A DNA stretch of 64,000 nt from Hypomyces perniciosus. Its lineage: Eukaryota > Ascomycota > Sordariomycetes > Hypocreales > Hypocreaceae. The DNA is taken from positions 4,588,001-4,652,000 of the forward strand of contig SPDT01000001.1 in the NCBI GenBank assembly GCA_008477525.1, read 5' to 3'. The notes beneath the pieces are model-generated. The model saw only the letters and a list, made by a program, of their open reading frames with translations. It did no database searches and had not been told where the DNA came from. Numbering within the stretch: the stretch's first letter is position 1; every line of letters starts with the position of its first letter. This document shows positions 11,312-64,000 of this stretch, piece after piece. The position numbers and the translations under genes were made by a program.

Positions 11312-13136
11312 CTATGGTTGGTAATCTAATTCCTCCAACTTAAATCCCCGCTGCAAATAACTGCGAACTACCCGACGCAGATTGTCTCTCATCACTCCCT
11401 CAGCAGAAACTATAAGAATAAGCCATCATGAATAAGCAATTAATATGACCAGGGCCACTCACCAAGGACCAGCGTTCTATCACTATTCCGACCTACGAAC
11501 GCATTACAGTCTTTCTCTTTCACCATTGTTGGGGATGCGGACTCCTCTTCCCGGATAACCGACAATTTCTTCGGTGCTGACTGCGTGACGTTGCCAGTCG
11601 CTTCGCTCTTGACGATGAAGTCGACGTTGGGTTTACCGGGATATATGGTAAAGCGGTGATTTTGACTGCTCTCTTTCTCCATGTCGGCCCCGTTATAGAT
11701 AGATATGTATAGCATCTATTCTTATGAGTTAACATGAACCAGTCTTGTCAGGAACAAACTCACATAGCTTTCACTCATGTGATCCTCATGAAGTAAGCTA
11801 TCGATGGCTGGCTTGACCGCTTGGCGTAGATCTATGAGCATTAGAACTGGCAAATGGGAGGTTGGCGTACATCCTACCAAGATCGTATACTTGCCATACC
11901 AAGTGAATTCTTTTGGTATGACTGTTGCGACCTCTGTGCCCGTAAACCAACTTCCTCAGATACGGGAGCATAGACGCTATGCCAAACCCTGTTGCAAAGA
12001 GGAGAACACAGTCGAACTCCCAAACAGGTGCGCAATATCCATGAGGGCCACTAAAGAAAGCCCTCGGTGCTGCGTGTTGGGATGGCTTAGCCTCTGCATG
12101 GCGAAGTAGCTTACGTGTAAAGCCCCTTCGTGGCTTTATGAAGAGTTTAATTTCACTTTGCGGAACGGGTGACCACGAGGTTATAACAAACGGGTGGCTT
12201 GATAGGAGAGACACAGATGGGACCCATAGGTTAAGGTACTGGCCCGCATCGACTGCCAAGGATCGGGACACATAGATCGTGGCTTCAATAATGCCATGGC
12301 TATGAGTGATCTTGATGCGCGAGCAAGGACCTCCTAATTTCCGATTCCGATAGAAAATGAATGCAGCGTATAAAAACCCCAACGCGCAAAAGGCTCCTGC
12401 AAAGATATAAAGAGCGATCCAGCGATAGCCGTGAATTGACTTGAGATGATTTACAGTGCAAAAGACAACGGCTACGGCTAGCGCCTGATGAAGGCGGAGA
12501 AAAAGCTCGTAACAGCGCCTTCGTAGGATTGGAATGAATAAGAGGATGAGAAGTACCGTCATTCCAGCCCCCTGTACTCCGTAGGTGTCCATTAAATGCG
12601 CAATCCATCAAAAGGGTTCAAATTAGCCAAGTTGTACGTACCGCTATAGCATAAAAGTCCGTGGAAGGCTTCTCTGCAGCGTTGAAGGCGTGCTGCGTCA
12701 TAGCAAGCACGCCGTGAAAGATGACATGGCTCACTGCCATAACTCCGCAAGACCGATGTATTTGTCGAATTGTCGTTAGCGGCAGACCGAAGAGGTCGGC
12801 AAGGAAGCTCAAGTGAGTCGCGAGATATAGCGGACCCATGTTGACAAGCGACATGGTCCCGGCTCGCGAGGCAGCTTGCGATACCGAGTCAACCCCGTAG
12901 AAAAGACAGACGACGTTGCCTCCGAGATAGATCAGATGAACTAGAACAAAGGCTATTGTCCAGGGCCCGATTAGAGCATGGCGATTAATCAGAAATCGAT
13001 AGCCTAACGACTTGGAAGGGAGAATTATTAAGGCCCTTGAGAAAGTCACGATATGTGGGATAATGTTTCTGATAAGGAAAAGCGCAAGCAAGATGCCGCA
13101 CAGACAAATCGCATATATTTCCGTTGGATTTATCAT
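11312..13136 (-). CDS. ferric/cupric-chelate reductase (FRE family), five exons, intact
   Basis: Exons in transcript order: 13136-12642, 12571-11878, 11831-11764, 11715-11463 and 11409-11312, joining in frame to 535 residues. Introns are 46-70 bp. The membrane part carries the two bis-heme histidine pairs, H127/H141 and H193/H207, each 14 residues apart. HPFVITSW at 291-298 is the FAD-binding motif, and the GPHG site near 340 belongs to the NADPH-binding half. The C-terminus ends ELDYQP, the usual end of fungal FREs. The enzyme reduces extracellular Fe(III) or Cu(II) with cytosolic NADPH at the plasma membrane. It lies back-to-back with the DUF3723 gene. FREs are recurrent Starship cargo. The GTAGGA donor at 11877 is unusual, but the frame and family spacing support it. 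Confidence 0.88.
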
Positions 13137-13971
13137 TATGCACCTAACTCACTTTCTCACCCTACAGGAAACCTGAGCTGTAGCAGAGAACAAGGCCAAG
13201 CGGTTTTCTCAAATACTTGAACCTTCATTCGGCCGGACTAAGGACGATAGTAGACAGAGGGAGGCGGAAGGGGCAGAAAAAGGTAAGGCAAGAAGTGGAT
13301 CAACTACCCCACAGATTATTAGTATGTATAAGATTCCCAGCGCTGCCCTTTGATCAAAAAAATCAAGTGAAAAGCAGCAAAAGCCATCTTCTTATTGGCC
13401 AAAAATTAAACGAGCCTATAATAACAGTGCTTTTTTTCGTTTTTTTTTTTTTTTTTTTTAATTTGGTTGATTTGGTCAAACAGTAGCGCTGAACATTCCC
13501 AAATTGCGGGTGTAGAGGACCGGGATGGTATTCCCTGTTTTGACTAATTGCTTTATCTTGTCAAAATACACTCTCTGATGCGTCCAGCAGACACAGGATG
13601 TTCTTCGGATGCCTCTATCTACTGGGCTATTCGCCAAGAAGATAGAAAAGGCAAATTGCTCGGCGATCTGGCATTGGAATCTCACCAACACAACCTTTCC
13701 TCCGACCATGCGCGAAGATGCATACGAGCACTGTTAAGAAACGAGACGCTGAAGGTGGCATTGACCCCGTGTTAAGCGTACCTGGTCTGCGGGACGGCAT
13801 GAGGATCAGCACTCTCCACAAGCTCTGTAGCGCAAAATGCGATGAGGTGAATGGCCCAACCGCCCCTTTTAGCCCGTGTTCGGCGGTGTAACCAGACACT
13901 AGGAGGCAGCAGCATATCTTGCTCACATCATCGATATATGGTTCAAGATAGCTTTACAAAGCAAAGATGCT
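13137..13971. other. divergent promoter region with a long poly-T tract
   Basis: About 835 bp between the divergently transcribed FRE and DUF3723 genes. A pyrimidine run of roughly 20 T lies near 13441-13460. It must hold both promoters. No coding exon is supported. Confidence 0.4.
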
Positions 13972-15396
13972 ATGGCTAAGATAACTGCCGAGGACATCGA
14001 GGCTCTAGAGCTTCGCTGCCCGAAGTTCTGCCCTCGGGATGCGGCGGAGATCGAAAAGATAATCAATCAAGGTCGCATATTCAGAGCATTCAGCCAAGAG
14101 GAGCGTGTCGCAATGAAAGCCGAAATCCTTTCCGTAGATTGCGTGATCCCTTCTTTGTACACGTTCTTCCACGACGTGCACCTCCTCGAGACTTGCGCCG
14201 CGAGCATGAAGCATATTATCACACCTGGCAACAAGACCATTCGCACGGCACTCAGAGACAGTTTCATGCCGATGGGGCAACGAGCAGAGCCAGAAGTGGA
14301 ACAGGATGTGGCCCTCAATTTCAAAAATGCCATGGAGTCGTTGTGGATTTTCGTCTTGCAAAATTTTCAACGAATGCCACGACCATCTGAGAGAACATAC
14401 AGGAAACTTCTCGCTACGTATTTGGTAGAGAAACCACACGAAGAAACACTCTTGCAATTCGCCAAGTTCGCCCAGAAGTTAGGCTTCCAGACTCCTGAAA
14501 TCGAATATCTAACGCAGGCGACAGTCGCTCACAACAACGAACATCGTACTGACCCCCCGTCCCCGACCAGCAGTCAGCGCCAGCTGCCGACAGGACTGCT
14601 TCAAAGCACTGCTCTAGTGGACTTCTTAGTTGAGAGGAGCTCTACCGGGTCTGCCGAGAAGTCTTCCGAGGAGTATGTCAAGGCCTTGCGGCGACGATGT
14701 GGCCGCCCAAAACATGAGTCATATCAACGGGACCGGGCATTCCTCACCAAAGAGATTCTACACTTTGATTTCAGTCTATTCAATATCCAGGGTCCAGATA
14801 TTGCGCCATTTTTTGTCCTGAGGTCCCAGTACCTTGCCTTCTTCGCGAGCTCTGGAGTGCTATCCGATTACTTATCGGCATATGAATCATCAGATACTGA
14901 TGCTGAGACCGCTGAGGCTGCTGAGACCGCTGAGACCGCAAGACCGCTGAACCTTGGAGAAAGCATAATGAGATCAAGGAACTACTCTGAAGAAGCTGTT
15001 TCTGTATTATCTCTTACTACGGAAGATGATGAGGTCGTAGTCCACGAATTGGCAGTAGAGAATCCAGTGGATACTACGCCCATATCGGAAGACCAAGCAC
15101 AAACAGTAGTGCCCCATTCTATTTACATCATGTTCAAGGTGTTTCGAGAAGGCCGTTTTGAGGAATTCAAGCAAGTCGATGCGAGCAATCCAACCACTGT
15201 GGCGGAGACGGCACGGGGATTAATGAGAGACCATGAGATGAAATTGTTCTCTACTGACCTGCGGCCTCTTATGCCAGAGGAGTGTTTGGACTCGGCAACG
15301 GTGTCTGGTGTAAATACAATTGTTCTCCTACCCGAAAACGAAGTTGAGATCTCGGACAAGTTGCGGAAAGCAATTTCTCAACTGTGTCAGAGATAG
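13972..15396 (+). CDS. DUF3723-family protein
   Basis: Single exon of 474 residues from ATG 13972. The N-terminal third carries the family pattern: LELRCPKFCPRDAAEIEKI, QEERVAMKAEILSVDCVIPS, LYTFFHDVHLLETCAASMK, and a later TIRTALRDSF. A second, weaker copy of the same pattern begins at residue 235 (LRRRCGRPKHESYQRDRAF, then KEILHFDFSLF). This suggests an internal domain duplication. A low-complexity Ala-Glu-Thr stretch lies near residues 308-322. The biochemical function is unknown. DUF3723 is one of the four standard auxiliary genes of Starship giant transposons. Longer homologues exist, so this may be a short version. Confidence 0.75.
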   Translation: MAKITAEDIEALELRCPKFCPRDAAEIEKIINQGRIFRAFSQEERVAMKAEILSVDCVIPSLYTFFHDVHLLETCAASMKHIITPGNKTIRTALRDSFMPMGQRAEPEVEQDVALNFKNAMESLWIFVLQNFQRMPRPSERTYRKLLATYLVEKPHEETLLQFAKFAQKLGFQTPEIEYLTQATVAHNNEHRTDPPSPTSSQRQLPTGLLQSTALVDFLVERSSTGSAEKSSEEYVKALRRRCGRPKHESYQRDRAFLTKEILHFDFSLFNIQGPDIAPFFVLRSQYLAFFASSGVLSDYLSAYESSDTDAETAEAAETAETARPLNLGESIMRSRNYSEEAVSVLSLTTEDDEVVVHELAVENPVDTTPISEDQAQTVVPHSIYIMFKVFREGRFEEFKQVDASNPTTVAETARGLMRDHEMKLFSTDLRPLMPEECLDSATVSGVNTIVLLPENEVEISDKLRKAISQLCQR

Positions 15397-20626: not shown

Positions 20627-23600
20627 TCACTGCAACCTTTGACGCTTCAGCTGCTGCTTCATTGTATCATCTACGCGCGTCCGCTTCCGGTGGTCACTTG
20701 TGCCAAAGTATGCATCAAGTTTTTGCTGTCTAATTAGCCGTTCAAGAGTAAAAGGCGAACCACTAATGTGGCAGATAGATGACGGGCCTTCTTGTAGACT
20801 GATTTCAAGCTGGTGTTGTCGGCTCGGTAAATGAAATGCTACCCTTTGACGAAAGTTCCCATCATCATTTATCATCACATGAGGAGACACTTGAAAACTA
20901 TCAGGCAGTGTTCGCCCTTGGCATCTGAACGAAGCGCAGGCATGATGTAGCTGACGCATGAACGTATCGAATTCTGCTGTTCCCGCTCGCAGGCGACATA
21001 GAATGTAGCCTACGCCTTCGTAATTGCCAGATACGAGCTGGGGTGGATGAGCTGGGTCTAGTTCGAAAAGGAACAGCTCGGCCCGAATGCATTTCGCGAG
21101 CTTTTCCATGGCGACTGATCCAAGTGCGGCCTCTCGCGCGATTCTACTGATTTCGCCCATACCCTCTACGTCGTCCAAGGCAGGTTGCTTGGCCTTGAAC
21201 TCGATGTCGAACCGGAAAAACTCCCCGCGGCCGCCCAATTTTTGGTGGGCCATCAACTGTTTCCAAGCATCACTAGAGTCGCCCTGTTTCCAAGCATCAC
21301 TAGAGTCGCCCTGTTTCCAAAAAGCACGGGACAGTCGGGCCGGAAATGAGTCTTTCCACAAAGCGCGCCTCGGTGCATCGCTATCATGACTTGGCGAAGT
21401 TGCGCCTGTCCCCAGCGACACCAATGCTTGGTTCCGTCGCGGCTGGAAAGATGGCCGCTGCTTCTTTGAGTGCAATTGAGGCAGGATTGTTGAATGTCAG
21501 ACCGCCGTCTTGGAAGGTCCCCACACCTTCAATGCGATGCGGAGTAAAGTAGCTTTTGCCAACCCTGCTTAACATCAGGATGCCTAACGGACGAGCTTAT
21601 AATCGACTTACTATGGCGCTGCAGTACAACAGCGAAGACTGCTTTGACTTAGCACGCTGCTATATGTCTGAGGATGAGGGAGGGGAGGGGATTTTCTCTG
21701 AAGCTTAACATACATTTCCCAGAGAGGTACATTGTGGATTCCAGTGCTGGAGTCGAGAACGCTATAGTCTGGACGTGGTCAGGCTTGTGTTCATCGTCCC
21801 GTATGCGGTGATGCTTACTGCTATTGTCACGGCGCTCCCCGGCTCCGTTGTAGTTAGTCACGACGAAGGTGCTTGTATCGTCTGTGCTAGTGAGCGTCAC
21901 GCCGAGCAATGTGCCCATTTCACTTGCTTCCTTGGAGTCTACGATGGCGCGGTCCCGACCGTAAACGTCTTGCTGTATCATCTCTAGCCTTTCGGCCGAA
22001 TACTTACTGTCTACTAACAACGAGATTACGAACTGAACAACTGGCGATATGATGGGGAGATGCCCGAACAAACGTATGAAGAGTCGAAACAACTGGCGCT
22101 TCTCGAACGCCAACTTTGACGATAACTCGAAATACTCGATACATTTCTCGATGGGCCAGCCATTAATGTAAAGCGCACAAGCAGTCATGGCACCTGTCGT
22201 GGTGGTCAGCTTGCGTTCGTCAGAGAACACAGGATCGGATATCTCGAGTCACCAGAGCTTGTCCCGTATACGATATCGAAATTTCGCTGCACCGGATACG
22301 GCAGTGCGACGACGTGTTGCAAGACCTGGAGAAATTCCAAGGGGGCTCGCCCTCGAGTTCCCCCGCCGTCGATGCTCAGCACGCGAGCTGTTGCGGTGTC
22401 TGGTTTGACACGGATACGTAGGTCGCCTGCGTCGACCCCACAAAGGATGCATTTGTCGACGCAGAACAGCCAAGTGTCTTCTGGACTCGGACAGTGGAAG
22501 ATCCTGACGCATATCTGGCATATCCAATGCCCGCATGGGAGGCGGTATTGGGGCCTGCGCCGCAGACAGCTGAGGCATGACTCTTCCGATAGCGGGAAGA
22601 TGCTATGCCTGCATAGATGGGCCAGGTTCTGTAGATGTAAATCCTTTGACGATTGAAGTTCTTTATATCGATGGAATTGCTTGGTAACTTCGTCTTGGAT
22701 CATGGGGATTAGGTCGAATGGGAGTCTCGGAAGATTAGACGCCTCTCGGTACGTCTCCAGGTCTTTGCTCACTTGCATGCATGCGTCGTGATAGAATGTG
22801 TGAAAAACGTCCTGGGGTTTGAAAGCTAACAGACAATTTAGCTTTAAGTACGCCCAAGAGGTTGCAAGTCATGATTGTCATGCTTACAGTGCATTCCGGG
22901 GGGGTACTGGTCTACAATGAAACTGGAGGCTATGAGTGGGATTGCAAAACTTTTCAACAAAGCAGCATCATCAATTAGCTTTAGAAAGCCCACAAGGTGC
23001 GCCGAAAGGTCCGAGGCAGTGGGGATCTTCGCTCTCGAAATTTTGATGAAATCAAACGGCTCCCATGGCGACTTGACGGCGCTCTCCGGGGCGGCAAGGA
23101 GGAATTCCGCGGTATGACGTGCCGAAAAGAGCAAGCCTGAGTCAAGTCGGTCGTGTTGGACGAGATCCAAGGACCTGAGAAGCTCTTTACGGAGAGGCTG
23201 GCACATCTTCGATTGCACTCTCTTTGATCTCAATCCACGAGTGTTATTGTAGATGGTTACGACGCGGATGCGCCGAAAATGATCCCCAAGCGACACAGCG
23301 TTGATGGCACTCAGCATCGGCTTTTTCTGTCCCCTTGCTACGACAAGAACCAATGCGGGGCGCATTGGCGTCGTCGATGACTGACCCTTGTCGGCCCATG
23401 CCGTCAGGCGGCGTATAGCGCTGTCGATGCCTCCAATGTCCCCAACAAACATACAGACGACATCTGCGAATGGAGAAAGTAGCCTATGGTAGATGTGGTC
23501 GGGCGCCTCTACCGTTTTTGCTATCGATTTTTCCTCCAAAAAAGGTTGATCAGCCGTCTCATGGCAATGTTGCAGCTTACACGATCTAGGTAGTCTATTA

Positions 23601-23893
23601 TGGGAGGGTATATCACCATCGCCGACGATGATCGGTCTTTTGGCTCGAAGGTGTGAAACTTGTAGATGGTATTCTCCATGGCATTTTCGACCCGCCAGAT
23701 GACCGTATTCTAGACCGAGAGTGGAGAAAGCAAGAGACTTGGTCTGGCTGCCGATCAAAATGATGACACCGACAGGTTCGTCTACATTTTGAATGTCTTT
23801 GAGAAGCTGGCGTGGCCGGTCCGATGTTTCAAGAATGATTTGGTGATTTTTCTTCCACAGCCTTAGCCACCCAGTATGGCTGCAATTTCTCAT
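20627..23893 (-). pseudogene. RING-like/patatin-like phospholipase (PLP), six exons, one frameshift
   Basis: Exons in transcript order: 23893-22888, 22825-22253, 22193-21819, 21768-21714, 21638-21612 and 21552-20627. Introns are 50-75 bp and phases fit throughout. An N-terminal 330-residue region is followed by a Cys/His cluster (CLSCL..., CGHWICQIC, then CVDKCILCG) that looks RING-like. Next is a patatin domain with GGGTRG (oxyanion loop), GTSSG (nucleophile elbow, split by an intron) and DGG (catalytic Asp). Patatins hydrolyse lipid acyl esters with a Ser-Asp dyad. All catalytic motifs are present. In the last exon, however, the frame must shift near 21422, between EPSI and VSLGTG, so the C-terminal 265 residues are out of frame. 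Patatin-like genes are recurrent Starship cargo. A truncated inverted copy lies at 54.6-56.35 kb. The start codon choice is tentative. Confidence 0.8.
21257..21320. repeat. 27-bp tandem duplication inside the PLP gene
   Basis: A 27-bp unit is repeated twice, plus a 10-bp partial third copy, adding nine in-frame residues (KQGDSSDAW twice). It preserves the reading frame of the C-terminal domain. Confidence 0.9.
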
Positions 23894-24754
23894 GATGCTT
23901 ATGGCCTTCAGGTTAGGTATGTGGGTGTCTTGATGATCTTATATGTCAGTGGCACGGCCTATTTCAGACTAAATGTTTATCTTTCGACAACTTATGGACT
24001 AGATACAGCGAGTAGCGTAGGCAGCCACTTCTGGCCGAGTTGTTTCATCAAGGTACTGTGTGGGCGGTGGTAGATATGTGTGGGAATCGTGCCTAATACT
24101 GTAGTATAGCGTTGCCATACATACATACAGGACATCATTCTTTACAGCACCGCAGATTGATTGCAATATATACAGATATGTATGTATATAGATATGGAAT
24201 ATGAGTTTTATTAGTGGAGTGGCCTGGATTTATGTACATTGTTTGTCTTATACTCCGCACTCGCCGCGTGTGGTGTTGCTCTATAATATGGCCGTTACTA
24301 TGAACCGGTAGGGATTAATAGTCGGAACGACGCACTAATAGTATACGTCATTTATGCATAAGAATCCATAGCTCAGATCAACAACCGTGATCCAAGGCGA
24401 GCCAAAGGAGCAATAATCCAATCGTGATCACGGAGTTCAGTCAATGTATATAGATGTCCTAAGCTTCCACCCATTAGCATAAATACAAGCTGGCTTTTAT
24501 CAGTACACATTTAATCGAACTGCTTGTTCCACTAAATATAAATAGTGACTTGATTACAGTACGGAGTACTCAACTACCCTAATCTCCTGCCAACGTTAAC
24601 CCTAACCCTACAATTTATCCTGAAGAGACCCATAGGATTGTCGCACTGCGATACCAACAACTGTTAACTCACATCTATATTAACAACGATGCTGCCATAG
24701 TTCTTATTTAAAAGTTCTGTGGAAATATAGTATGGTATGTATATTGCTAGACGA
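23894..24754. other. intergenic with microsatellites and a short telomere-like repeat
   Basis: The first 200 bp are shared with the inverted duplicate near 54.6-54.83 kb. TACA/TGTA microsatellite runs lie around 24115-24190. TTAACCCTAACCCTA at 24596-24610 resembles two and a half fungal telomere units. No gene is supported. Confidence 0.5.
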
Positions 24755-33312: not shown

Positions 33313-36300
33313 ATGGGAGAAGCTATCTACGGGGATGATGGAGCAAGGAACGAGGGCGCCCAAGATGCTTCCTATTATGAGGATGACGATGTGGCAGGCT
33401 TTGGACGTGACGATGTGCCAAGCTTGGAATGCGAAGACGATCCAAAATTCGAGGAGGACGAGGAGGACAATGAAGACAATGAAGACAATGATGAAGCCAT
33501 CTACGAGGCCGTTACAGCTTGCCTCAGGCTCTTTTCCAGCGTCACGGGGCAAGCGGGCTCGTCATTTACTTCTGACAAGCCAGGGAAGTCCGCCGTCAAA
33601 CTCCCAATGGAGATCGCCGAGTTTATGGAAGACACGAAGAGAAGCTTCAACATCTGGATTGACTATACCGGTGCTTTGGCTGCTGATGTCAGTCGATCCC
33701 TGGATGCACGCCTCCAAGGGTACAAAGACATCAAAGGCATGGCTGTAGAGCTGCTCCAGATGCTAGCGAGGAACTTAGAATACTGTACGTCCCAAAGAAA
33801 GACGCTTTTAGCTATCTTGAGCAGTGACTTGTGTACTCACTACGATCAGTGGGTTCAAGCGACCCAAAAATCCTAAGGTCACCGCCACACGAAACGAGCG
33901 ATTCCATCCGGCATGCCGTTGAAGAGCTGCATTTCATAGCAAGCGTGATTCGCAAGTCGTCTGTTCGAAGCCAGAAATACAGCCTCTCCTCAGGGTTCGA
34001 GGGAGATGACACTTACTTTGAAAACTACACGTCTCTCATCATCAGGCACACATTTCCCCATGCTCGGCGGTCTCTCTGCAAGCAACTCGCCGCATCCGTT
34101 GCACTTCGCCGAAAACGTTTGCTTCGCAAGATTCAGCACGAAGAGAAACTGAAGACCAGACAGACGCCAAGTCAAGTCAATACCAATCAAGCACAGGCAG
34201 CCCCAGTCACCCAGTCGCAGCCATCTCGACCCCAGCCCCATTCATTGCCCACGCCTGCCCGTTCGCCACATGAAGTAGGGGGTCGTGTTGTTCCCACCGA
34301 GTCTGTCGACACGAGGAGCAGACTGAACGTCGAAATGGCTCGTTGCGACTTAAAGACTGGGCCAGCTCTGTCAACTATGAGTATGGGGTCTTCTGTGTGC
34401 CTATCTACGCGCAAGTATCCGTCCAAGCCTCATTTCCTGCCAGGAGCCACGGACTGCGCATGCCCATATTGCGCACAGCGGCTGCCCACCGCGAAACTGA
34501 ACAATATTCCTACATTTTGGGAGTAAGTACTCGCTTCTCATCGCCTCGTTCTCAGCACATATTCTTATAAGTCCACACTAGTGACCACTTGGACAAGGAT
34601 GTACAGCCCTACACCTGCCTTTCGGAAGAATGCAGGTCTCCGTTGCTTTTCTTCGTTCACATGAAACAATGGGTCGACCACATGAACTCTGTGCATTCAG
34701 AGCAGTGGACCAGGAGAATCCATATGAGCACCTGGTACTGCGATACCGACCACGAAGCCGCGCAGTTCAACGACCTTGAAAGCTTCATGGAGCATATGAA
34801 AGATCCAGCCAACCATCCCGGACGACCGCCGCCAAGCGTCCTGCAACTAGATACCCTTTCCAGGACCCGGCAAAAAATTCTCACCCGTGACGATGAGTAT
34901 TCGTGCCCGTTTTGTGATTGCATCCCAGACATGCTTAAGCCGGTCATCCCGACCGGTGAGCCGAAGGCAATCCTGCATCTGCTGCACAAGCATATTGCTA
35001 GCCATGTCAAGAATCTTGCCGTCTTGTCCGTCCCGGTACTGATCACCACCGAGACGCCCGAAAGTGTGTTAGACAAATCTGAAAACGAAGAGAAACGCCG
35101 CTAGCTGAAAAAAAGCGAGAAAGCATCCTACCCAAGCGGATATGATGAGGAGCTTCATGCCGTGCCACTCACTGAGGATGAGAATCCAGAAGAGTGGCCA
35201 CCTCTGGACGTACAAGAAACACAGATATCGCACTGGCGTGAGATTGGATTCATAGAATGGTACGAAAGAGAGCAATCTGGAGCCAAAATATCAGGGCCGG
35301 AAACAGATTTTGTCCTGCAAGATTTCGTCCGAGCTCGGGCCCAAGGCAGTAGCGGTGTGGGTCTGGTGTCTGGAGGGACGTCGAACCCAAATGATTACAC
35401 AGTCGGCTGGATCTGTGCTATTTCGACCGAATATGTTGCTGCCCAAGCTGTCCTCGACGAAAGGCACGAAGGGCCAGAGATGGTCTCCACGAACGATAAT
35501 AACGATTATACGTTAGGCAAAATTGGGAAGCACAACGTTGTTATCGCCGTCTTGCCCAGTGGAGAGTATGGCATATCCTCTGCAGCACGTGTGGCGGCAG
35601 ATATGTCTCACAGTTTCCCTAACGTTAGAATCGGATTGATGGTTGGTATTGGTGGAGGAGCGCCTAGTCGAAAGCATGATATTCGTTTGGGGGATGTGGT
35701 GGTTAGCTCTCCAAGAGGCGGCAACGGTGGCGTATTCCAGTACGACTTCGGCAAAACCATACAAGGGCAGAGCTTCCAAACAACAGGGTTCCTGAACCAA
35801 CCGCCACTAGTTCTACGTGCAGCTGCAGCTGGCCTTCAGGCGCAATATGAGGGCGAAGGAAATCAGCTTGAGGCGGCCATCGGTGCTATTCTCGATAAAA
35901 AGCCAAGGCTACGGAAGAAATATCGACGACCCAATCTAAGCAGCGACAGACTGTATCAAAGTAACGTCTGCCACCCTACAAACGAGGAATCGGATTGTGC
36001 GGTGACATGTGGGGATAATCCGTCAACCCTCATTTTACGACCCGAAAGGACGGAAGACGAGGATAATCCGACTATCCATTACGGCCTAATCGCTTCAGCA
36101 AGCCAGCTCATGAACGATGCTGTGCTTCGAGATAAGCTCGCAGCGGAAAAGGATGTTCAGTGCTTTGAGATGGAAGCGGCGGGATTAATGAACCACTTTC
36201 CGTGTCTAGTCATTCGCGGCATTTGCGACTATTCAGACTCGCACAAGAATAAGGAGTGGCAGGGGTATGCAGCAATGGTGGCAGCGGTATACACAAAGGA

Positions 36301-38132
36301 CCTTCTCAATCGAATCGCGCCAAATAGGGTTGAAGCTGAAAAGAAGATCGGCGATATTCTATCTGGTCAGTCCAAGGCTCTCCAAATCATACTATTAATA
36401 AGTATTAATTCTCCAGGAACAAGAAGAGTGAGAGACCTTTCTTCTCTGATAGCTGATTAAGCCGATGCTTAATAACGCGATTAACCTCCTGGCTGATAGC
36501 TTCTGACTCTTTCTCTCCTGGTATACGGATATTCGGAAAGGCATTTAACAGGCTGCGGAACTTGGACAAGATCTACTCATACGGGCGGCATGTCAGAAGG
36601 TACTTGAGCTTGCCATGGCCCAACTGGTCGCTGTAGAATTGGCTCTCTATATTCCGCATCAGGTCCGCAAACTCGGATTCGGCACATTCATCTAGGGCAT
36701 CAAGGACCATAATTACAGGTCCTGCCTGGGGATCATTGATAGCGTTTCGTAGAACCTTCCAGAGCGATTCTGTAGAGTTGATCAACCCTTGCCTATCCCT
36801 GCAGAATTCTGTCATGGCATATTCGATTAGATACGGCTTCTGGGAGAAGAGCTGTTGAAGCAGTGCGCAAAGCGCTTGCCGGACGGTGTTCTGGTCTTGG
36901 TCCTTGAAGAAGAAGTAGCAGATAGTTGCTGATCGTGGCAGGCCGTGGTCGACCAGGTATTTGGCCAATACTGACTTTCCACAGACAGGATCCGCTGATA
37001 CCAGCAGGGGGCCGGAGTCCTGTTTCAACCATGTGTGGAAGTGCTTGTGCTTGAGGAACCACATGCACGTGTCTTCAACCCTTTCTTCCACTCGGTCTTT
37101 ATACCACTCGTATGTGGCGTCCCTATTGCCAGTGGTGAGGCGAAACAGCTGGTGACACCCAAAATTAAAAGCCACCTCGAGAAAAGGCTACAAGAGACTC
37201 CCCATCGCACTTATCTCTGGATATACCTTATATTTGATTACTTGGAGAAAGAAAACTTTAAAAAGACAGTGCATGGGTTTGACTCCACTATTAAAAACCT
37301 TCCAAGCAGTATCAATGAGGCATACGAGCGGATTCTTGCCCGATCCAAGGAACACCCTATAGTTCGGAAGACTTTATGTATCATCTTAGCAGCTCGTCGA
37401 CCACTAAACCTCTCGGAAATGAATATTGCCTTAAATATAGACGATACATCACAGAGTATTCACGACCTCGACTTAGAGGATGAAGAGGACTTTAAGTCGC
37501 GTCTTAGATCTTGGTGTGGATTATTCATCTCAATCTATCATGGCAAGATTTATTTCCTTCATCAAACGGCTCGCGAATTTCTCCTTACAAATTTGGCATC
37601 GCCTATAACTGTCCCATCAAAGCTACGCTGGCATCACTCCATCACTACTCGCCACGCACACACTGTGCTTGCAGAGCTCTGCGTGCTCTATCTGAACTTT
37701 TTCGACTCCGACGTTAGCCTTCCAACAGGTACAGACAGGGAAAGCTGCCACTCTGTCAATAGCAACGCCTTTTTAGATTACTCGGCAAAAGCTTGGGGTG
37801 CTCACTGTCGCGAGGCTGATATTGTCGATGATGCTGCTATTGTACGCTCCGCTCTGAGAATATGTAATCCGGATTCAAAGAGCTATTCGGTATGGTTTGG
37901 GATCTATTGGAAGACTACAGGTTTAGATAATACTGAGAATTTTACGGATCTCATGGTAGCGTCGTATTATGGCCATCGTGCCGTCGTCAAGCTGCTGCTC
38001 GACAAGGGCGCCGACGTCGAGGCCAAGGATAACCGCTACGGTGGTACGCCGCTATGGTGGGCCGCCTCTGGGGGGCACGAGGCCGTCGTCAAGCTGCTCC
38101 AACAAAATTTCGATAACCATAAGTATAAGTAA
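33313..38132 (+). pseudogene. NOD-like receptor: zinc-finger / PNP_UDP / NACHT / ankyrin, broken
   Basis: Exons 33313-33784 and 33850-34522, then 34582 onward, join in frame. They give an acidic N-terminus, a helical region typical of fungal NLR-associated proteins, and Cys/His-rich zinc-finger-like blocks (TYCLSEEC-type and CPFCDC). In-frame TAG 35102-35104 interrupts the linker; the same frame resumes and holds a nucleoside phosphorylase-like (PNP_UDP) domain, about 35395-36320, with GIGGGAP and FEMEAAGL. The NACHT ATPase that should follow is on the opposite strand (36428-37159). From about 37160 the plus strand resumes exactly where the family should, with IKSHLEKRLQETPHRTYLW, a winged-helix-like part and one and a half ankyrin repeats ending at 38132. 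A LINE begins 130 bp later. Such NLRs act in non-self recognition and regulated cell death. This copy cannot make the full protein in its present arrangement. Confidence 0.88.
36428..37159 (-). pseudogene. inverted NACHT module of the NLR gene
   Basis: On the minus strand this block encodes the NACHT region in order: CHQLFRLTTGNRDATYEWYK, WFLKHKHFHTWL, a Walker A-like ADPVCGKS, ICYFFFKDQDQNTVRQALCA, Walker B MVLDALDEC, and LKYLLTCRPYE. An in-frame TAG follows at 36573-36575, then the frame continues with ILSKFRSLLNAFPNIRIPG to about KKGLS near 36428. Both ends abut plus-strand sequence that is its expected neighbour in the undisturbed gene. In Walker A the usual Gly of DPGCGKS is Val. It is therefore an inversion of about 730 bp, not a separate gene. 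Confidence 0.88.
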
Positions 38133-38267: not shown

Positions 38268-40095
38268 TCAGATGCACGGGAGTGGGCACAGTGGGCGCTC
38301 GACGAGACGCTGGAATGGGGAGCAGAGAACGCGGTGTCCTTCGACTACGCCAAGGCGGAATTGCTGCACTTTTACCACACAAGAGGCCAGGCACACGAAG
38401 AAGGTATCATGATGGAGGGAAAACCAGTCCAGCCCAAAGAGAACATCCGGTGGCTGGGGGTCTACCTCGACTCGAGGCTCTCCTTCAAGAAACATGTGGA
38501 GACGCTCGCGGGCAAAGCATACAAGGTCTCCAACTTCCTCAGGTCGCTCAACAAGACTCGGAAGGGCTCACCTCCCGAGGCTGTGGCACGAGCCGCGAAG
38601 GCCTGTGTCCTCCCCGTCGCCCTGTATGGGACGGAGGCGTGGTGGCCAGGACACGAACGACAGTCGCAAGCTGACCCTACCAAGCAGGTAAACACGGGAG
38701 TGTCCGGCCTAGTAGACAAAATAGACAAAGCCTTCAAGACTGCGGCAAGGGCAGTCCTCCCGGTTTGGAAGACCACGAGCGTTCCCGTCTTACACAGGGA
38801 GTCAGGGGTCCCCCCGGCCAGCGTCGCCCTAGCCCAGGCCCGACTCAGGTGCGCGGCGAGATTCGCGGGACTGGCTCGTGACCACCCGATCAGTCAACGC
38901 ATTGACAAGAAACTCCCTCCCCGACTACCACAAACCAGACTTCAGCGCACCGCCGCCCTGGTTGGCAGAACCATCAGACCCACCCTCTTCGCCAAAAAGT
39001 CCCCATACGTTCTCCCCGGTCCCGACCTAAGAGGCATGGGCAAACCAACTGCAGCAAGGAAACACCTGGAATTAGTCGATTCCCTCCCCCCCCCCACTCA
39101 GTCCTAGCCTACTCCGATGGGTCCCAAATCGGAGGGAGCACGGGCTGGGGAGCGGTCGCTTACCACAGAGCAAGAGCAACCACGGACACTGGACGCCTCA
39201 ACAACGCAGAGGTCTACGACGCGGAGGCACAGGCCGCCCTGAAGGCCATGGAGCTAGTGGCTAGACGCGTAGAGGAAGACCGCACAATTCAAACAGCCTT
39301 CCTCTTCCTGGACAACTCGTCGGTTGTCGACGGGTTGCTTGGCAAGTCCCCCCCGTCCATGCAAGGAGCGTACATACGCTTCCAGAAACTAGCACAGCGC
39401 ATCTCGCCCTGCAGGACCTTCGTCTCGTGGGTTCCAGGACACGAGGACATCATGGGCAACGAACAGGCCGACCGTTTGGCCAAACAAGGCGCGGCCCTCC
39501 CCGCCGCGCCACAGAACTGGGCTACGATCACACACATCAGAAGATGGACCAAAGAAGAAGTTGCGGAGGTAAGGGAGCGGGATTGGCTCGGCAAGACCCC
39601 GGAGGGCTACGAACGGTGGGGACTCGGGGCCCCAGCCTCCCCCCCGGAGCTCAAACTCCCACGCCCCATCCTCCACAGGCTCCTGGCGGAAAGATCGGGA
39701 CATGGGGACTTCCAGGAATACCACGAACGCTTCGGACACGACAGAGAGTCTGTCTGCAAGTGCGGCGAACCAAGGAGGCAAGGCCACTTCGCAGAATGCA
39801 GAATGGTCAGGCCCTTCCTTCCAGACATCCCCCCAGGAGAGACCCCCCTCTCTTACCTACTCGGACCTACAGGAAGCAAGGCCTTCCAGAAACTAGTGGA
39901 GGAAGCGGACCCTTATGGTCCTCCCCCGGCGGAAACAGATTGACACCACCCAGATTGACCCTTTTTCCTTTGTAAATTGAAACTCAGCGAACAGCGGCGC
40001 AAGCCGCCGGCTCCTGACGTCCTATTGCCCACAAGGGATTTGTGTAACTAGCTTACTTAGTGGACGTAAATAATAAAACAAACAAACAATTACCA
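38268..40095 (+). mobile_element. 5'-truncated non-LTR retrotransposon (LINE), RT end plus RNase H
   Basis: The open frame from about 38268 to 39107 is the end of a LINE reverse transcriptase ORF (DAREWAQWALDETLEWG, IRWLGVYLDSRLSFKKHV, then ALYGTEAWWPG). After a run of ten C at 39086-39095 the frame shifts by one into an RNase H domain with YSDGS, EAQAAL, FLDNSS and GNEQADRLAKQGA. A Cys-rich tail (CKCGEPRRQGHFAEC) follows, to 39943. The element ends in a short 3' UTR and an (ACAA)n tail at about 40076-40095. The small number of lesions suggests a fairly young insertion. It resembles fungal Tad/I-type LINEs with RNase H. Confidence 0.87.
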
Positions 40096-41613: not shown

Positions 41614-42171
41614 CAACATCAAATCACGTATTTTGAACGCAGGACGACGTATGATGTCCCAGATGCGTATAAGGCAATCGCCCGACTAGATAGAGGCAGG
41701 ATGTTTCCATCCATCAGCGCTGCCAGCGGATGGAGAACTGATTTCGCAGTAGAACGCATCATCGACAACTATCTCTGGACGTGTAGAGTCCGGGAACTTT
41801 GCGAGTTGATCCATTACCACCTGGAAGCGGACGAGTACGATAGGGCCGAGCCTCCTGGAACATTCTTGGCTTCTCATGCCGAGAAGAAGCTCATTGCGTA
41901 CTATATTGACCGGCATATGGTGCTGCCATATGCACTCATCCAAGACAGTGGGTTCGCAGGAAGAGAAGGATGGATCAGAGAACATGCTGCACTGCAAGAT
42001 CTTGCTGAGGTTCAACCAAAGGTCCCCGCAGTATAGGCTAGGATCTGTGTTAGCCGGGAGGTTTGTGGAGACTGTAAACACTTCATCAATCACATCGAGA
42101 GGAATCTAGGTGTATCCTTCCGGGTGTATCCTTCCGGGTCGAGGCGTGCTGAGAATGATCAGGTGCGCTAA
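41614..42171 (+). pseudogene. fungal cytidine-deaminase-fold protein, 5'-truncated, in-frame TAG
   Basis: The frame is open from 41614 (no ATG until 41701) to TAG 42034-42036, and continues after the stop to TAA 42169-42171. Blocks YDVPDAYKAIARL, GWRTDFAVERII and FLASHAEKKLIAYYI fit a deaminase domain family widespread in filamentous fungi. HAE supplies the zinc-binding His and catalytic Glu. The second zinc motif, VCGDC, lies nine residues after the stop, in the same frame, preceded by a strand-like ARICVS. The domain is thus complete but split by one stop. The N-terminal part of the parent protein is missing. Nucleic-acid or free-base deamination is inferred from the fold; the substrate is unknown. 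A 14-bp duplication (GTGTATCCTTCCGG) lies near the end. Confidence 0.7.
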
Positions 42172-50125: not shown

Positions 50126-51405
50126 CGTGATGTTGGTTCTTGTCGCTGAAGCACACTAACCTCGTTTGTACAACGAGTGCGAAATCGTAGCGGGGAATTG
50201 ACTACATACTGTGGCCGCATCGACAAACAAACCATTTGCGTTTGAGAGATCCGATACGGATCTCTCTCCATTTATCTGTTCTACGGAGGGTGCCCCCACT
50301 GTCTGCAAGAGCTGTGGTATGTTACCACGGAGACCGGGAAATATTCGGGGCTTGATGGAAAGCCTGCTATTGGTGGAACTGTTATTTCACCCTGGACTAG
50401 TCCGAAGCTTACGATGAGCACGAGTTCGTTCCAAATGCGGGTCAGATGCGGGTGAACTGTTAGGTATCTGCAGGCACGTTATTCCTCCATTTTAAACGCA
50501 GTTAACAGGCTCGTTTACTTCTCTACAGTCTCCCTATGAGAGTATGATTGTTCGCGCAGATCGGTCCGCTCTCGCCCGTCTAGATGATACCGGTCATACC
50601 GATGATCTTAGCCTTCAGAACGCGTTGGGATCTTGATGTTGACCCGGAAACCCGCTTCTGGGATCTTGGCTGGATAGGTGATTGAAGCACCCCTCGAATG
50701 GCTTGCCCGAGAGTGATATGCGCCGGCAAACCGAAACGCGTCAAGTAGTAATCAACAACGGCACTTCGAGGAAACACCTGTGTGGCCGCAGGGTCTGTTG
50801 AACATGTATCATCCCTACGCTTTCCTTGAACAGTGCTAGGGCTCGCCGGGGTTAACAAAATACTCGTACTTTGAATCAATACGCGTGAGTACGAAGTGCG
50901 GGGAACCCATGCACGGGATCACAGTTTGACTGGAGCCCCACTGTGCCCCCTACAGCACTAAATATAGAGGTGCCTTGGCCTGCTCGACCCAACCTTCTCC
51001 AGACTGAGTGAGTTTTCTCGCATTCCGTTTTGCATTAGTTCGAATTACACGAATGACTTCGAATTTTGACCTCAATGCCTACATATGCAGTAACCCTCCA
51101 CAGATACAGTAGAGGGCGAAACGAGTTTCCGCATTTTTTAGTTTTAAAACATTCTGAGCACGGACCAGTCTTGTGGCGCAATGTGGATGATACAGTGCCG
51201 GGCTCAAGCCGATGTGTACTTTTGAGAAGGTGCCTTAACGTAGGCCGGAATTGGACCTTCCACGGGGCATCAGGCAGTTGCAGTAGACACCTAACTTCTA
51301 AGGCATAGAGATATTGCCCGTCCGGTTTAGGCCATCCAGTAGGCAGCGACATCTATTGGAACCACGCCGTCAACAAAGCCAGAACAGGCTTGTCGTTGCT
51401 GATAC
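50126..51405. other. intergenic before the transposase relic
   Basis: About 1.28 kb. A 53-bp stretch at 51126-51178 is repeated near 61974-62025. Other ORFs have no support. Confidence 0.35.
51126..51178. repeat. short dispersed repeat, copy 1 (copy 2 at 61974-62025)
   Basis: The cores TTTTTTAGT.TTAAAACAT, GAGCACG/AAGCACG and GACCAG/GGCCAG are shared with 61974-62025 in the same orientation. It is probably part of an old transposable element. Confidence 0.6.
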
Positions 51406-52395
51406 ATGATATCGATGGCTCCGCAACTTGCTGCCTCTCAACATGAACTGATGGATGCGATGATCCAGAAAGATTTGCCGACTAACGAAATAGTCACAGT
51501 TGTCGGTTGCAGCGAACGCACAGTACGCAGAAAGCAATCGAAACGACGATACTCTGGAACGATGGAAGCACCCTCCAGCCGTGTCGGTTGGCGCAGTACT
51601 ATTACACCTTACATGCGAGAAATCCTACATGAGCAGCTAATCAAGCAGCCTGACATGTTTCGATGTGAGATGGTCGATTTCCTATACGATAAGACCGGAG
51701 TAGAATTGTCGCCTTACAGCGTCGGCCGGACCTTGACGGCCATGGGATGGTCTAGGAAAACGACCCGCCGTGTGGCAAAGCAACGAAATCACGAGCTATG
51801 AGATTTATATCTACATAGGCTCTTGGAATACGAGACCAATCAACTAGTCTTTATTGATGAGTCCGGTTGCGACAAGAAAGTTGGACAAAGACACTGGGGA
51901 TGGGCCCCGCGAGGATGCACGCCAGTGTAGATCAATGGGTTCAATCGTGAGCAAAGGTTTCAGATTCTCCCAGCGTATACACAGGATGGTGTATTGTTCG
52001 CGCGTATATACCCAGGATCGACAGACAGCGAATTTTTTTATGACTTTATTGAACAGCTACTGCATCACTGCGGTAGATGGCCTGAACCTAGATCGGTCCT
52101 TGTCATGGATAATGCTAGCTTCCACTGCTCAGACAGGCTCAGGCAATTATGTGCCGAGGCGGGGGTCAAGCTGCTCTACCTGCCACCGTACTCGCCAGAC
52201 TTTAATCCGATCGAAGAGTTCTTTGCAGAACTGAAGGCATACATCAAGAAGCATTGGAAAGGGCACGAGGACCTGATTAGGGAGGATTTCAAAGCCTTCC
52301 TGAGGCTATGTGTCGAGATTGTGGGCTCTCGCCGGGCAAGTGCTAGAGGTCACTTTCGCCATGCTGGGCTGTCTGTAGAGGAACCTCTCGAGTAA
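51406..52395 (+). pseudogene. Tc1/mariner-type DDE transposase, two in-frame stops
   Basis: One frame of 329 codons from ATG 51406 to TAA 52393 carries a helix-turn-helix N-terminus (NEIVTVVGCSERTVRRK). The catalytic blocks are FIDESG, VMDNASFH and YSPDFNPIEEFFAELKAY, the DDE/D triad of Tc1/mariner elements. TGA 51799-51801 and TAG 51928-51930 interrupt it; both are explained by C-to-T changes (CGA, CAG). There is no frameshift. I could not find terminal inverted repeats within a few hundred bases. The enzyme is not made as one chain. Confidence 0.85.
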
Positions 52396-62723: not shown

Positions 62724-64000
62724 TTAATTTGTCTTCACTGGCGTCAACTTTACGAACAACGGAGGCTTCTGCCATAAGTTATACATTTTCATATCATTCC
62801 ACTTGCTGCTTCTTTCATCAAGTTTGAGCTCGAAATTCCATAGAATTCTTGCCAGAACCACACGCATCTCTGCATATGCAAGACTGCAATTAAAAGTTAG
62901 CCAGGGGCGTCTCTCACAGAATGTGAAAAGGCAACATACTTTCTCCCAACACAGTCCCGAGGGCCAAGGCTGAACGGGGCTGATGTATCCCTCTTGTCTT
63001 CAGCATATCGCTCATTATCTAGCCAACGCTCAGGCACAAAGGAATATGGATCCGTCCAGTTTTCTTCGACATGACTGGTGGTATATGCGGCAGAATAGAC
63101 CGTGACCTTTCGCCATGGTTAGTCTAAGTTTCGTAATGAGCCATAGGATGACAATGGGATAACTTACATCACCTGGAACCCAGTGACCGGCGATTCGTGC
63201 ACCTTGGGGAGGTGTAATGCGAATAGTGCCAATTGGCGCGGGTGGATGGATTCGCATAGCCTCGTCAAGTACTGCTAATTGGTACTTAAGCTTTCTAACA
63301 CTCACGAAAGTAATATCATTTTCGTTTTGGAAAGCTCCACGAATCTCGGAGACTAGCTTAGCCATGACATCTGGGTTGACCAGCAGATAGAATGTCACAG
63401 CTGAGAGTAATGTTGCTGTCGTTTCGCTGCCTGCCACTAATAAGATGCCAAAAGTGTGGATTAATTCTGCTTCTGACATGCCAGTCTAGTGACACAATAA
63501 GCTTTTATTCGATTGCCTGCTAATGAATCAGTGAATGTGGAAGGTTCGTACCTTTTCGTTGTTGTGTCTTAAAACATGTTGCATAAAATCAGGCCGATTC
63601 GTCTCATCTCTCAGCCGGCGAAGCACCTTTTCCTTTGTAAAGTTGCTATGGTATTCTCGACTTTTTATTACACTGTTGGAAACCAGCAGAGGGAGGAGAA
63701 TCCTGCTAATTATTGGGAACCTTGAGGCAACATTTCGGAACACAGTCACCTTCTGGTACTTGAAGAGAAGAGAGACCCAACTGTGTAATTTCGAATTTAC
63801 AAGGCAATCAAACGACTCTCCCAATGCCAAGTCTCCAATGATATCGAATGTCGTAAAATTGTACCAGTCGACCATGTCTTGAGGAGTCCCCGTACTCTCC
63901 CGAAGTTTCATTATTAACTGGTCGATGTATGTTTGAATGAGCGGTTCTTGTTCGCTGAGTGCCCTCTCGGAAAAGGCATAAGCAAGTATTCGGCGATGAT
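62724..64000 (-). CDS. cytochrome P450, 3' part (5' end outside the window)
   Basis: Exons in transcript order: beyond 64000 to 63552, 63485-63168, 63106-62940 and 62883-62724. They join in frame, with introns of 56-66 bp, to about 364 residues. I-helix AGSETTATLL, K-helix EAMR, the PERW block (FVPERWLDNERY) and heme loop FSLGPRDCVGRN with its Cys ligand are all present. The C-terminus ends KLTPVKTN. Sequence style fits fungal CYP65-like enzymes, which hydroxylate secondary metabolites at the ER, but the subfamily is a guess. No lesion is visible. The N-terminal membrane anchor lies outside the window. Confidence 0.9.

Follow-up and report, generated by a model that had tools for sequence, protein, structure and literature searches.

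A PNP_UDP-NACHT-ankyrin receptor gene copy of Hypomyces perniciosus, probably inactivated in place by a small inversion of its NACHT segment

The locus and its inverted block

In the fungus Hypomyces perniciosus, we analysed a stretch of 64,000 nucleotides, called the window throughout (assembly GCA_008477525.1, contig SPDT01000001.1, forward-strand positions 4,588,001 to 4,652,000; contig C3 in our numbering), which holds a copy of a NOD-like receptor (NLR) gene with its NACHT ATPase part on the strand opposite to the rest. The contig measures 5.36 Mb in a genome of 44.0 Mb assembled in 23 contigs, a number that suggests a long-read origin of the assembly, and coordinates without a contig or locus name are window positions. 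The three parts of a fungal NLR, namely an effector domain, a NACHT or NB-ARC domain, and C-terminal repeats, were all found here by Pfam profile search, and the matches confirm the order and orientation given in the initial annotation, which was made from the letters alone: a PNP_UDP_1 match on the plus strand (E = 2.1e-9), an NPHP3_N/NACHT match on the minus strand (E = 1.3e-35) and, 3' of it and on the plus strand again, the remainder of a DUF7069 domain followed by a winged helix and ankyrin repeats. The respective open frames run from 35105 to 36460 (+), from 36573 to 37187 (−), and from 36999 to 38132 (+). The three parts are not collinear and the P-loop is not intact, with a glycine replaced by valine; since the NACHT lies on the minus strand, the locus is a broken member of the family and not a working NLR.

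Along the gene, the PNP_UDP (nucleoside phosphorylase) effector domain occupies 35368–36365 on the plus strand (PF01048), stop-free from 35380 to 36362. It is followed by the remnant of a predicted intron (36366–36412, +), delimited by eye from the alignment of 11 paralogs with the window flank and the splice-site consensus, and lacking the 3' end known from the paralogs. Only 16 nt of interdomain linker remain thereafter (36413–36428, +). Next, on the minus strand, comes the inverted block (36429–37157; 729 bp, 243 codons), which carries the NACHT together with the first ~23 positions of DUF7069, as placed by Pfam and by paralog alignments; within it lie the Walker A motif or P-loop (36972–37001, −) and an in-frame TAG stop (36573–36575, −). 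The rest of DUF7069 stands in its native orientation at 37158–37295 (+), where the profile match to PF23239 positions 20–68 spans C3:4625143-4625295, that is, 37143–37295 of the window, and the gene ends with a winged-helix region followed by roughly two ankyrin repeats (37296–38132, +; PF22939, PF12796, PF00023), up to the C-terminus shared with the paralogs.

Ten close paralogs of this gene were found in the same genome (L031–L040), and in 10/10 the NACHT is collinear with the PNP and post-NACHT parts, although for L039 the right-flank alignment is limited to 174 bp; two further loci are a truncated (L041) and a distant (L042) relative. The ten share 85–91% protein identity with the window copy across the NACHT, and the flipped block is 90–93% identical in DNA to their collinear NACHTs, which means that it is not a chance match. 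The PNP part is closest to L036 (95.6%; ~95% in DNA across 35368–36412), the NACHT to L031 (93.3%), and the post-NACHT part to L033 (90.8%). Outside this genome, the post-NACHT part aligns at 60–71% identity with proteins of Trichoderma, Ilyonectria, and Dactylonectria (five clear alignments among the ten best-scoring), genera of the Hypocreales. As an observation in its own right, L040 (C3:4505500-4515400), which precedes the flipped gene by ~115 kb on the contig, has a NACHT with a 188-bp internal deletion.

Read by eye in the paralog alignment, the sequence left of 36429 reaches the native starting point of the NACHT, and the sequence right of 37157 resumes exactly where the end of the block leaves off, the ends being uncertain by a 3-bp inverted microhomology. 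The initial annotation had read the locus as a clean inversion of ~730 bp inside the gene, at 36428–37159; these limits were right within 2 bp, and both junctions show zero-base gain or loss. The inversion is not domain-exact because it cuts DUF7069, with profile positions 1–23 inside the block (22.8 bits, against a cut-off of 27) and positions 20–68 outside. A check was made with proteins of other genomes, against which the two pieces of the right junction were searched separately. Among the best 120 of 556 relatives, 81 match both pieces, and the alignments of 76 extend to both edges; 61 of the 76 have a residue spacing equal to the number remaining in the window, so the inversion is most likely base-conservative. 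The antisense-derived residues searched alone match 0/120 of these best-listed relatives at E ≤ 10.

Further lesions in the gene, and a second flipped NACHT

Besides the inversion, the gene has suffered other damage. The gap between PNP and NACHT is 16 nt in the window vs. 129–151 nt in 11 other loci, corresponding to a separate left-linker deletion of 113–135 nt that takes the 3' end of the intron; the P-loop glycine kept in 10/10 paralogs is valine here (36984–36986); and the plus frame coming from the PNP part enters the block and ends at the stop at 36460, so a PNP-only protein is predicted at most. Decay is common in this family, as judged from stops in several paralogs: the NACHTs of L035 and L039 also contain stops (at least 2 of the 10), and L031 shows one change to a stop in its post-NACHT part. 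In the flipped block, the unique substitutions number nine nonsynonymous plus one stop against two synonymous, compared with 47 plus three stops against 31 in the ten paralogs pooled, 11 against 12 in the PNP part (three comparators), and 20 against 10 in the post-NACHT part, and the ratio in the block may lean weakly towards relaxed constraint. Seven of the 12 unique changes in the block are C>T or G>A, five of these in a CpA/TpG context; repeat-induced point mutation (RIP) was rejected as the main cause of the lesions, with dinucleotide indices near the whole-window values, a slight contribution being possible.

About two ankyrin repeats remain here, and several paralogs carry many repeat copies. 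A fragment of a long interspersed nuclear element (LINE)-like element bearing an RNase H domain (PF00075) lies outside the gene on its 3' side (38286–40089, +), and insertion of this element was rejected as the cause of the short array because paralog homology passes the stop, continuing to 38139 and in some paralogs to 38285, and the element starts only at 38286. The fragment is 95.8% identical to L033:7987-9791, a copy ~2 kb from another paralog of the NLR family.

A second flipped NACHT was found in the same genome, in a gene of the NWD type (NACHT_N, NACHT, WD40), with NACHT parts on opposite strands at C5:2960124-2960694 and C22:4094193-4094763. The two copies (L043 and L044) are 99.94% identical in DNA across 3,443 bp and are therefore counted as one event. 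In L043 (C5:2958600-2963000) the flipped half measures 343 bp (L043:1756-2098), retains the P-loop motif, and keeps its frame open. The spacing from the flipped half to the next part is identical in 110/110 outside proteins matching both pieces, within the best 120 of 403 relatives obtained by scoring the 7,999 best candidates; for the left junction the judgement is by eye, and microhomology at the breakpoints is ≤1 bp. The second flip is an independent, base-exact inversion. Its N-terminal frame seems, by eye, to be shifted shortly 5' of the breakpoint, so this gene, too, looks broken.

To see how unusual such flips are, the whole genome was surveyed for NACHT domains, giving 103 matches at 93 loci; at 46 of these, a flanking domain is matched no more than 1.5 kb away. 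The window locus is the only one of these 46 comparable loci with a NACHT-flank pair on opposite strands: the flank lies on the same strand in 15/16 cases for DUF7069, 32/33 for the winged helix, 21/22 for PNP detected by DNA, and 15/15 for PNP detected by Pfam, this last count being without the window's own PNP. Two flip events among 93 NACHT loci compare with no internal flip at 80 p450, 112 Fungal_trans, and 53 HET loci used as controls (p ~0.08, calculated by hand). Three mixed-strand p450 clusters have overlapping profile parts and were for this reason taken as separate genes. The excess of flips in NLRs is suggestive and not significant, and we do not claim enrichment, given that the window flip came from a flank test not applied to the controls, that 47 of the 93 NACHT loci have no flank match, and that p450 was scored for 92 of 156 candidates.

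Breakpoints and competing explanations

At the window locus, the longest inverted word common to both breakpoints (±60 bp) is 6 bp long, a length usual among 500 random pairs of equal spacing, and at L043 it is 7 bp long, again ordinary against random pairs in the same range. The inverted repeats or recombination sites expected at both ends of an inverton are found within this range at neither locus. This lack of a breakpoint inverted repeat counts alike against repeat-mediated homologous recombination, a site-specific switch, and a misassembly driven by repeats; the mechanisms left are double-break end joining and template switching. Two other likenesses were set aside as coincidence: a 9-bp inverted repeat of L043 touches just one breakpoint, and an 11-bp word common to the window left junction and L043 sits inside the L043 block.

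Our reading is that the locus is probably a PNP_UDP-NACHT-ankyrin NLR copy in which a single base-conservative inversion, made in place, destroyed the function and so disarmed the copy permanently. Two breaks would have occurred, one at the border between linker and NACHT and the other inside DUF7069, and the fragment would have been rejoined in reverse, using 0–3 bp of microhomology, in a repair event that involved either end joining or template switching. The NACHT ATPase would then no longer be encodable from the plus-strand gene, leaving the NACHT and ankyrin parts stranded, and the valine in the P-loop, the stop, and the linker deletion, whether earlier or later than the inversion, would fit a loss of constraint.

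Several observations weigh against this reading and should be kept in mind. The spacing at the right junction differs in 15 of the 76 outside homologues (by −21 to +7), and five checked relatives gave gapped alignments extending partway into the antisense part, with which the separate search disagreed. The PNP and post-NACHT parts still lack stops, which points to slight decay, and a partial product under selection is possible. The substitution counts are small, with just three comparators for PNP. Two inverted pairs with imperfect matching (81% over 16 nt and 83% over 12 nt, among 31 pairs in 1 kb) straddle the block 13–50 bp outside the left and 79–101 bp outside the right breakpoint, the right-hand members lying beyond the ±60-bp test; as a cause of the inversion they were judged to be chance. 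Finally, the genome holds a second flip, independent of this one, which may mean that the event was not an isolated accident.

This last point also favours an unlikely alternative, in which the disarming was selected, the flipped allele or its PNP-only product being retained because it removes a self-reactive or costly ATPase step or avoids incompatibility. The 11:12 ratio of unique changes in PNP, indicating constraint (omega ~0.32), vs. 10:2 in the flipped block, speaks in its favour, together with a second NLR of this genome broken in a like manner; however, the counts are small, the PNP constraint could be older than the inversion, and two events among 93 loci may be coincidence. We consider it quite unlikely, in turn, that inversion of the P-loop part, seen in two unrelated NLRs, base-exact and free of repeats, would be a recurrent and perhaps selected way of silencing NLRs in fungi with no sequence lost, keeping a store of receptor modules that could perhaps be turned back. 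Very unlikely is an ectopic templated replacement, with a reverse-oriented NACHT copied from elsewhere in place of the native one. The gene is indeed a mosaic with respect to its nearest paralogs, but a foreign insert would hardly fill in exactly the residues that are missing, with none gained or lost, and among the loci found in the genome none is similar enough for a recent donor.

The consensus assembly is the sole basis of the present analysis, so that an assembly artefact has to be weighed as well; we hold it to be highly improbable. Inverted repeats are the places where assemblers turn segments round; the flanks contain no strong one, and an unrelated base-exact inversion is present in two copies at a second locus, which together make such an error unlikely; moreover, the block is 7–10% diverged from each close paralog and therefore was not borrowed from one, and the low contig number speaks for long reads. 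As to a reversible or programmed DNA switch, which the initial annotation had offered beside permanent disarming, the exactness of this inversion and of the second one would suit it, but it is extremely improbable: inverted words near both breakpoint pairs are within chance, no site common to the breakpoints of the two loci was seen by eye, the P-loop glycine conserved in all ten paralogs has been lost in the window copy, and both copies of the second locus stand in the same orientation, a mild argument against frequent flipping. A tyrosine or serine recombinase domain was absent from the 51 scanned of the 66 window open reading frames (ORFs) of ≥125 aa, the rest of the genome not having been searched. 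What the window does contain, ~14 kb from the flipped gene, is a DDE_3 transposase fragment (51931–52395, E = 2e-24); a winged-helix part directly precedes it, and the whole (51403–52395, +) is a mobile-element remnant. Of the initial interpretation, then, the inversion and the permanent disarming are supported, the latter by the broken P-loop, the stop codon, and the linker deletion, and the switchable state is not.

The window has other features as well. Zinc-finger-like frames, perhaps part of the NLR gene, precede the PNP part (33828–35104), with an in-frame stop at 35102–35104; their sole domain match is an A2L zinc ribbon below the cut-off at 34571–35104, a segment with six other, weak relatives in the genome (32–37%), and the close paralogs align from 35368 on and not over this upstream frame. 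Just 3' of the LINE-like fragment, an ORF at 41614–42036 (+) carries an SsdA_C deaminase domain (PF24120, E = 8e-17). A ferric reductase, a DUF3723 gene, and the NLR lie within ~27 kb (11798–15396, 20627–23938, and 35105–38132), and a weak patatin-like match, below the Pfam cut-off, lies at 22206–22868. NLRs are usual cargo of Starship giant transposons, and a DUF3435 captain was not found in the same 51 scanned ORFs, the wider contig not having been searched. DUF3723, ferric reductase, and patatin-like genes are reported as prevalent or notable in Starships, and one NLR is reported in a Starship (PMC12134995). At the window's end, a p450 match on the minus strand (63210–64000; C3:4651210-4652289) is interrupted by seven stops; C16:4280172-4281251 gives a match of near-equal score with the same stops, which suggests a duplicated segment.

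Relation to known systems and significance

Fungal PNP_UDP-NACHT-ANK NLRs form a large and variable family with combinatorial domain assortment, described by Dyrka et al. 2014 (PMC4986451) and in a Sordariales survey (PMC12258605), and the window locus shares their domain set; unlike them, it has its NACHT on the opposite strand, so that no collinear receptor can be read. A word search of these two papers gave no mention of rearrangement and, for inversion, one unrelated use in each. The closest precedent is NWDp-3 of Podospora anserina, a pseudogene that its authors describe as "apparently inactivated" when an inversion of 60 kb split an ancestral HNWD gene (PMC1805685), which is likewise a fungal NLR pseudogene; both there and here, parts of one ancestral NLR lie in opposite orientations. 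In contrast to that 60-kb event, which split the gene in two, the inversions described here span 0.73 and 0.34 kb, are intragenic, entail no base loss, and bear the P-loop. Human–chimpanzee microinversions, mostly base-exact, 17–33 nt long, and flanked by inverted repeats, have been discussed in terms of template switching, with microhomology-mediated break-induced replication proposed (PMC8755829). They resemble our cases in being small and mostly base-exact, whereas ours are longer (729 and 343 bp) and without such breakpoint repeats. We found no description of flipped NACHT modules produced by small or intragenic inversion in fungi, within sources that cover subscription journals thinly.

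In summary, inversion-inactivated fungal NLRs are already known from NWDp-3 (PMC1805685), and what makes the present locus notable is its base-exactness, along with a further, independent case in this genome. Fungal NLR turnover has been attributed to duplication, repeat exchange, and RIP (PMC1805685); small base-exact intragenic flips of the ATPase would be an extra route to receptor disarming, and one easily missed where annotation splits such a locus into two or three short genes. With two independent cases in one genome, the flip rate should be measurable in pangenomes, and flipped alleles, as naturally occurring losses of function, could be used to test what incompatibility costs.
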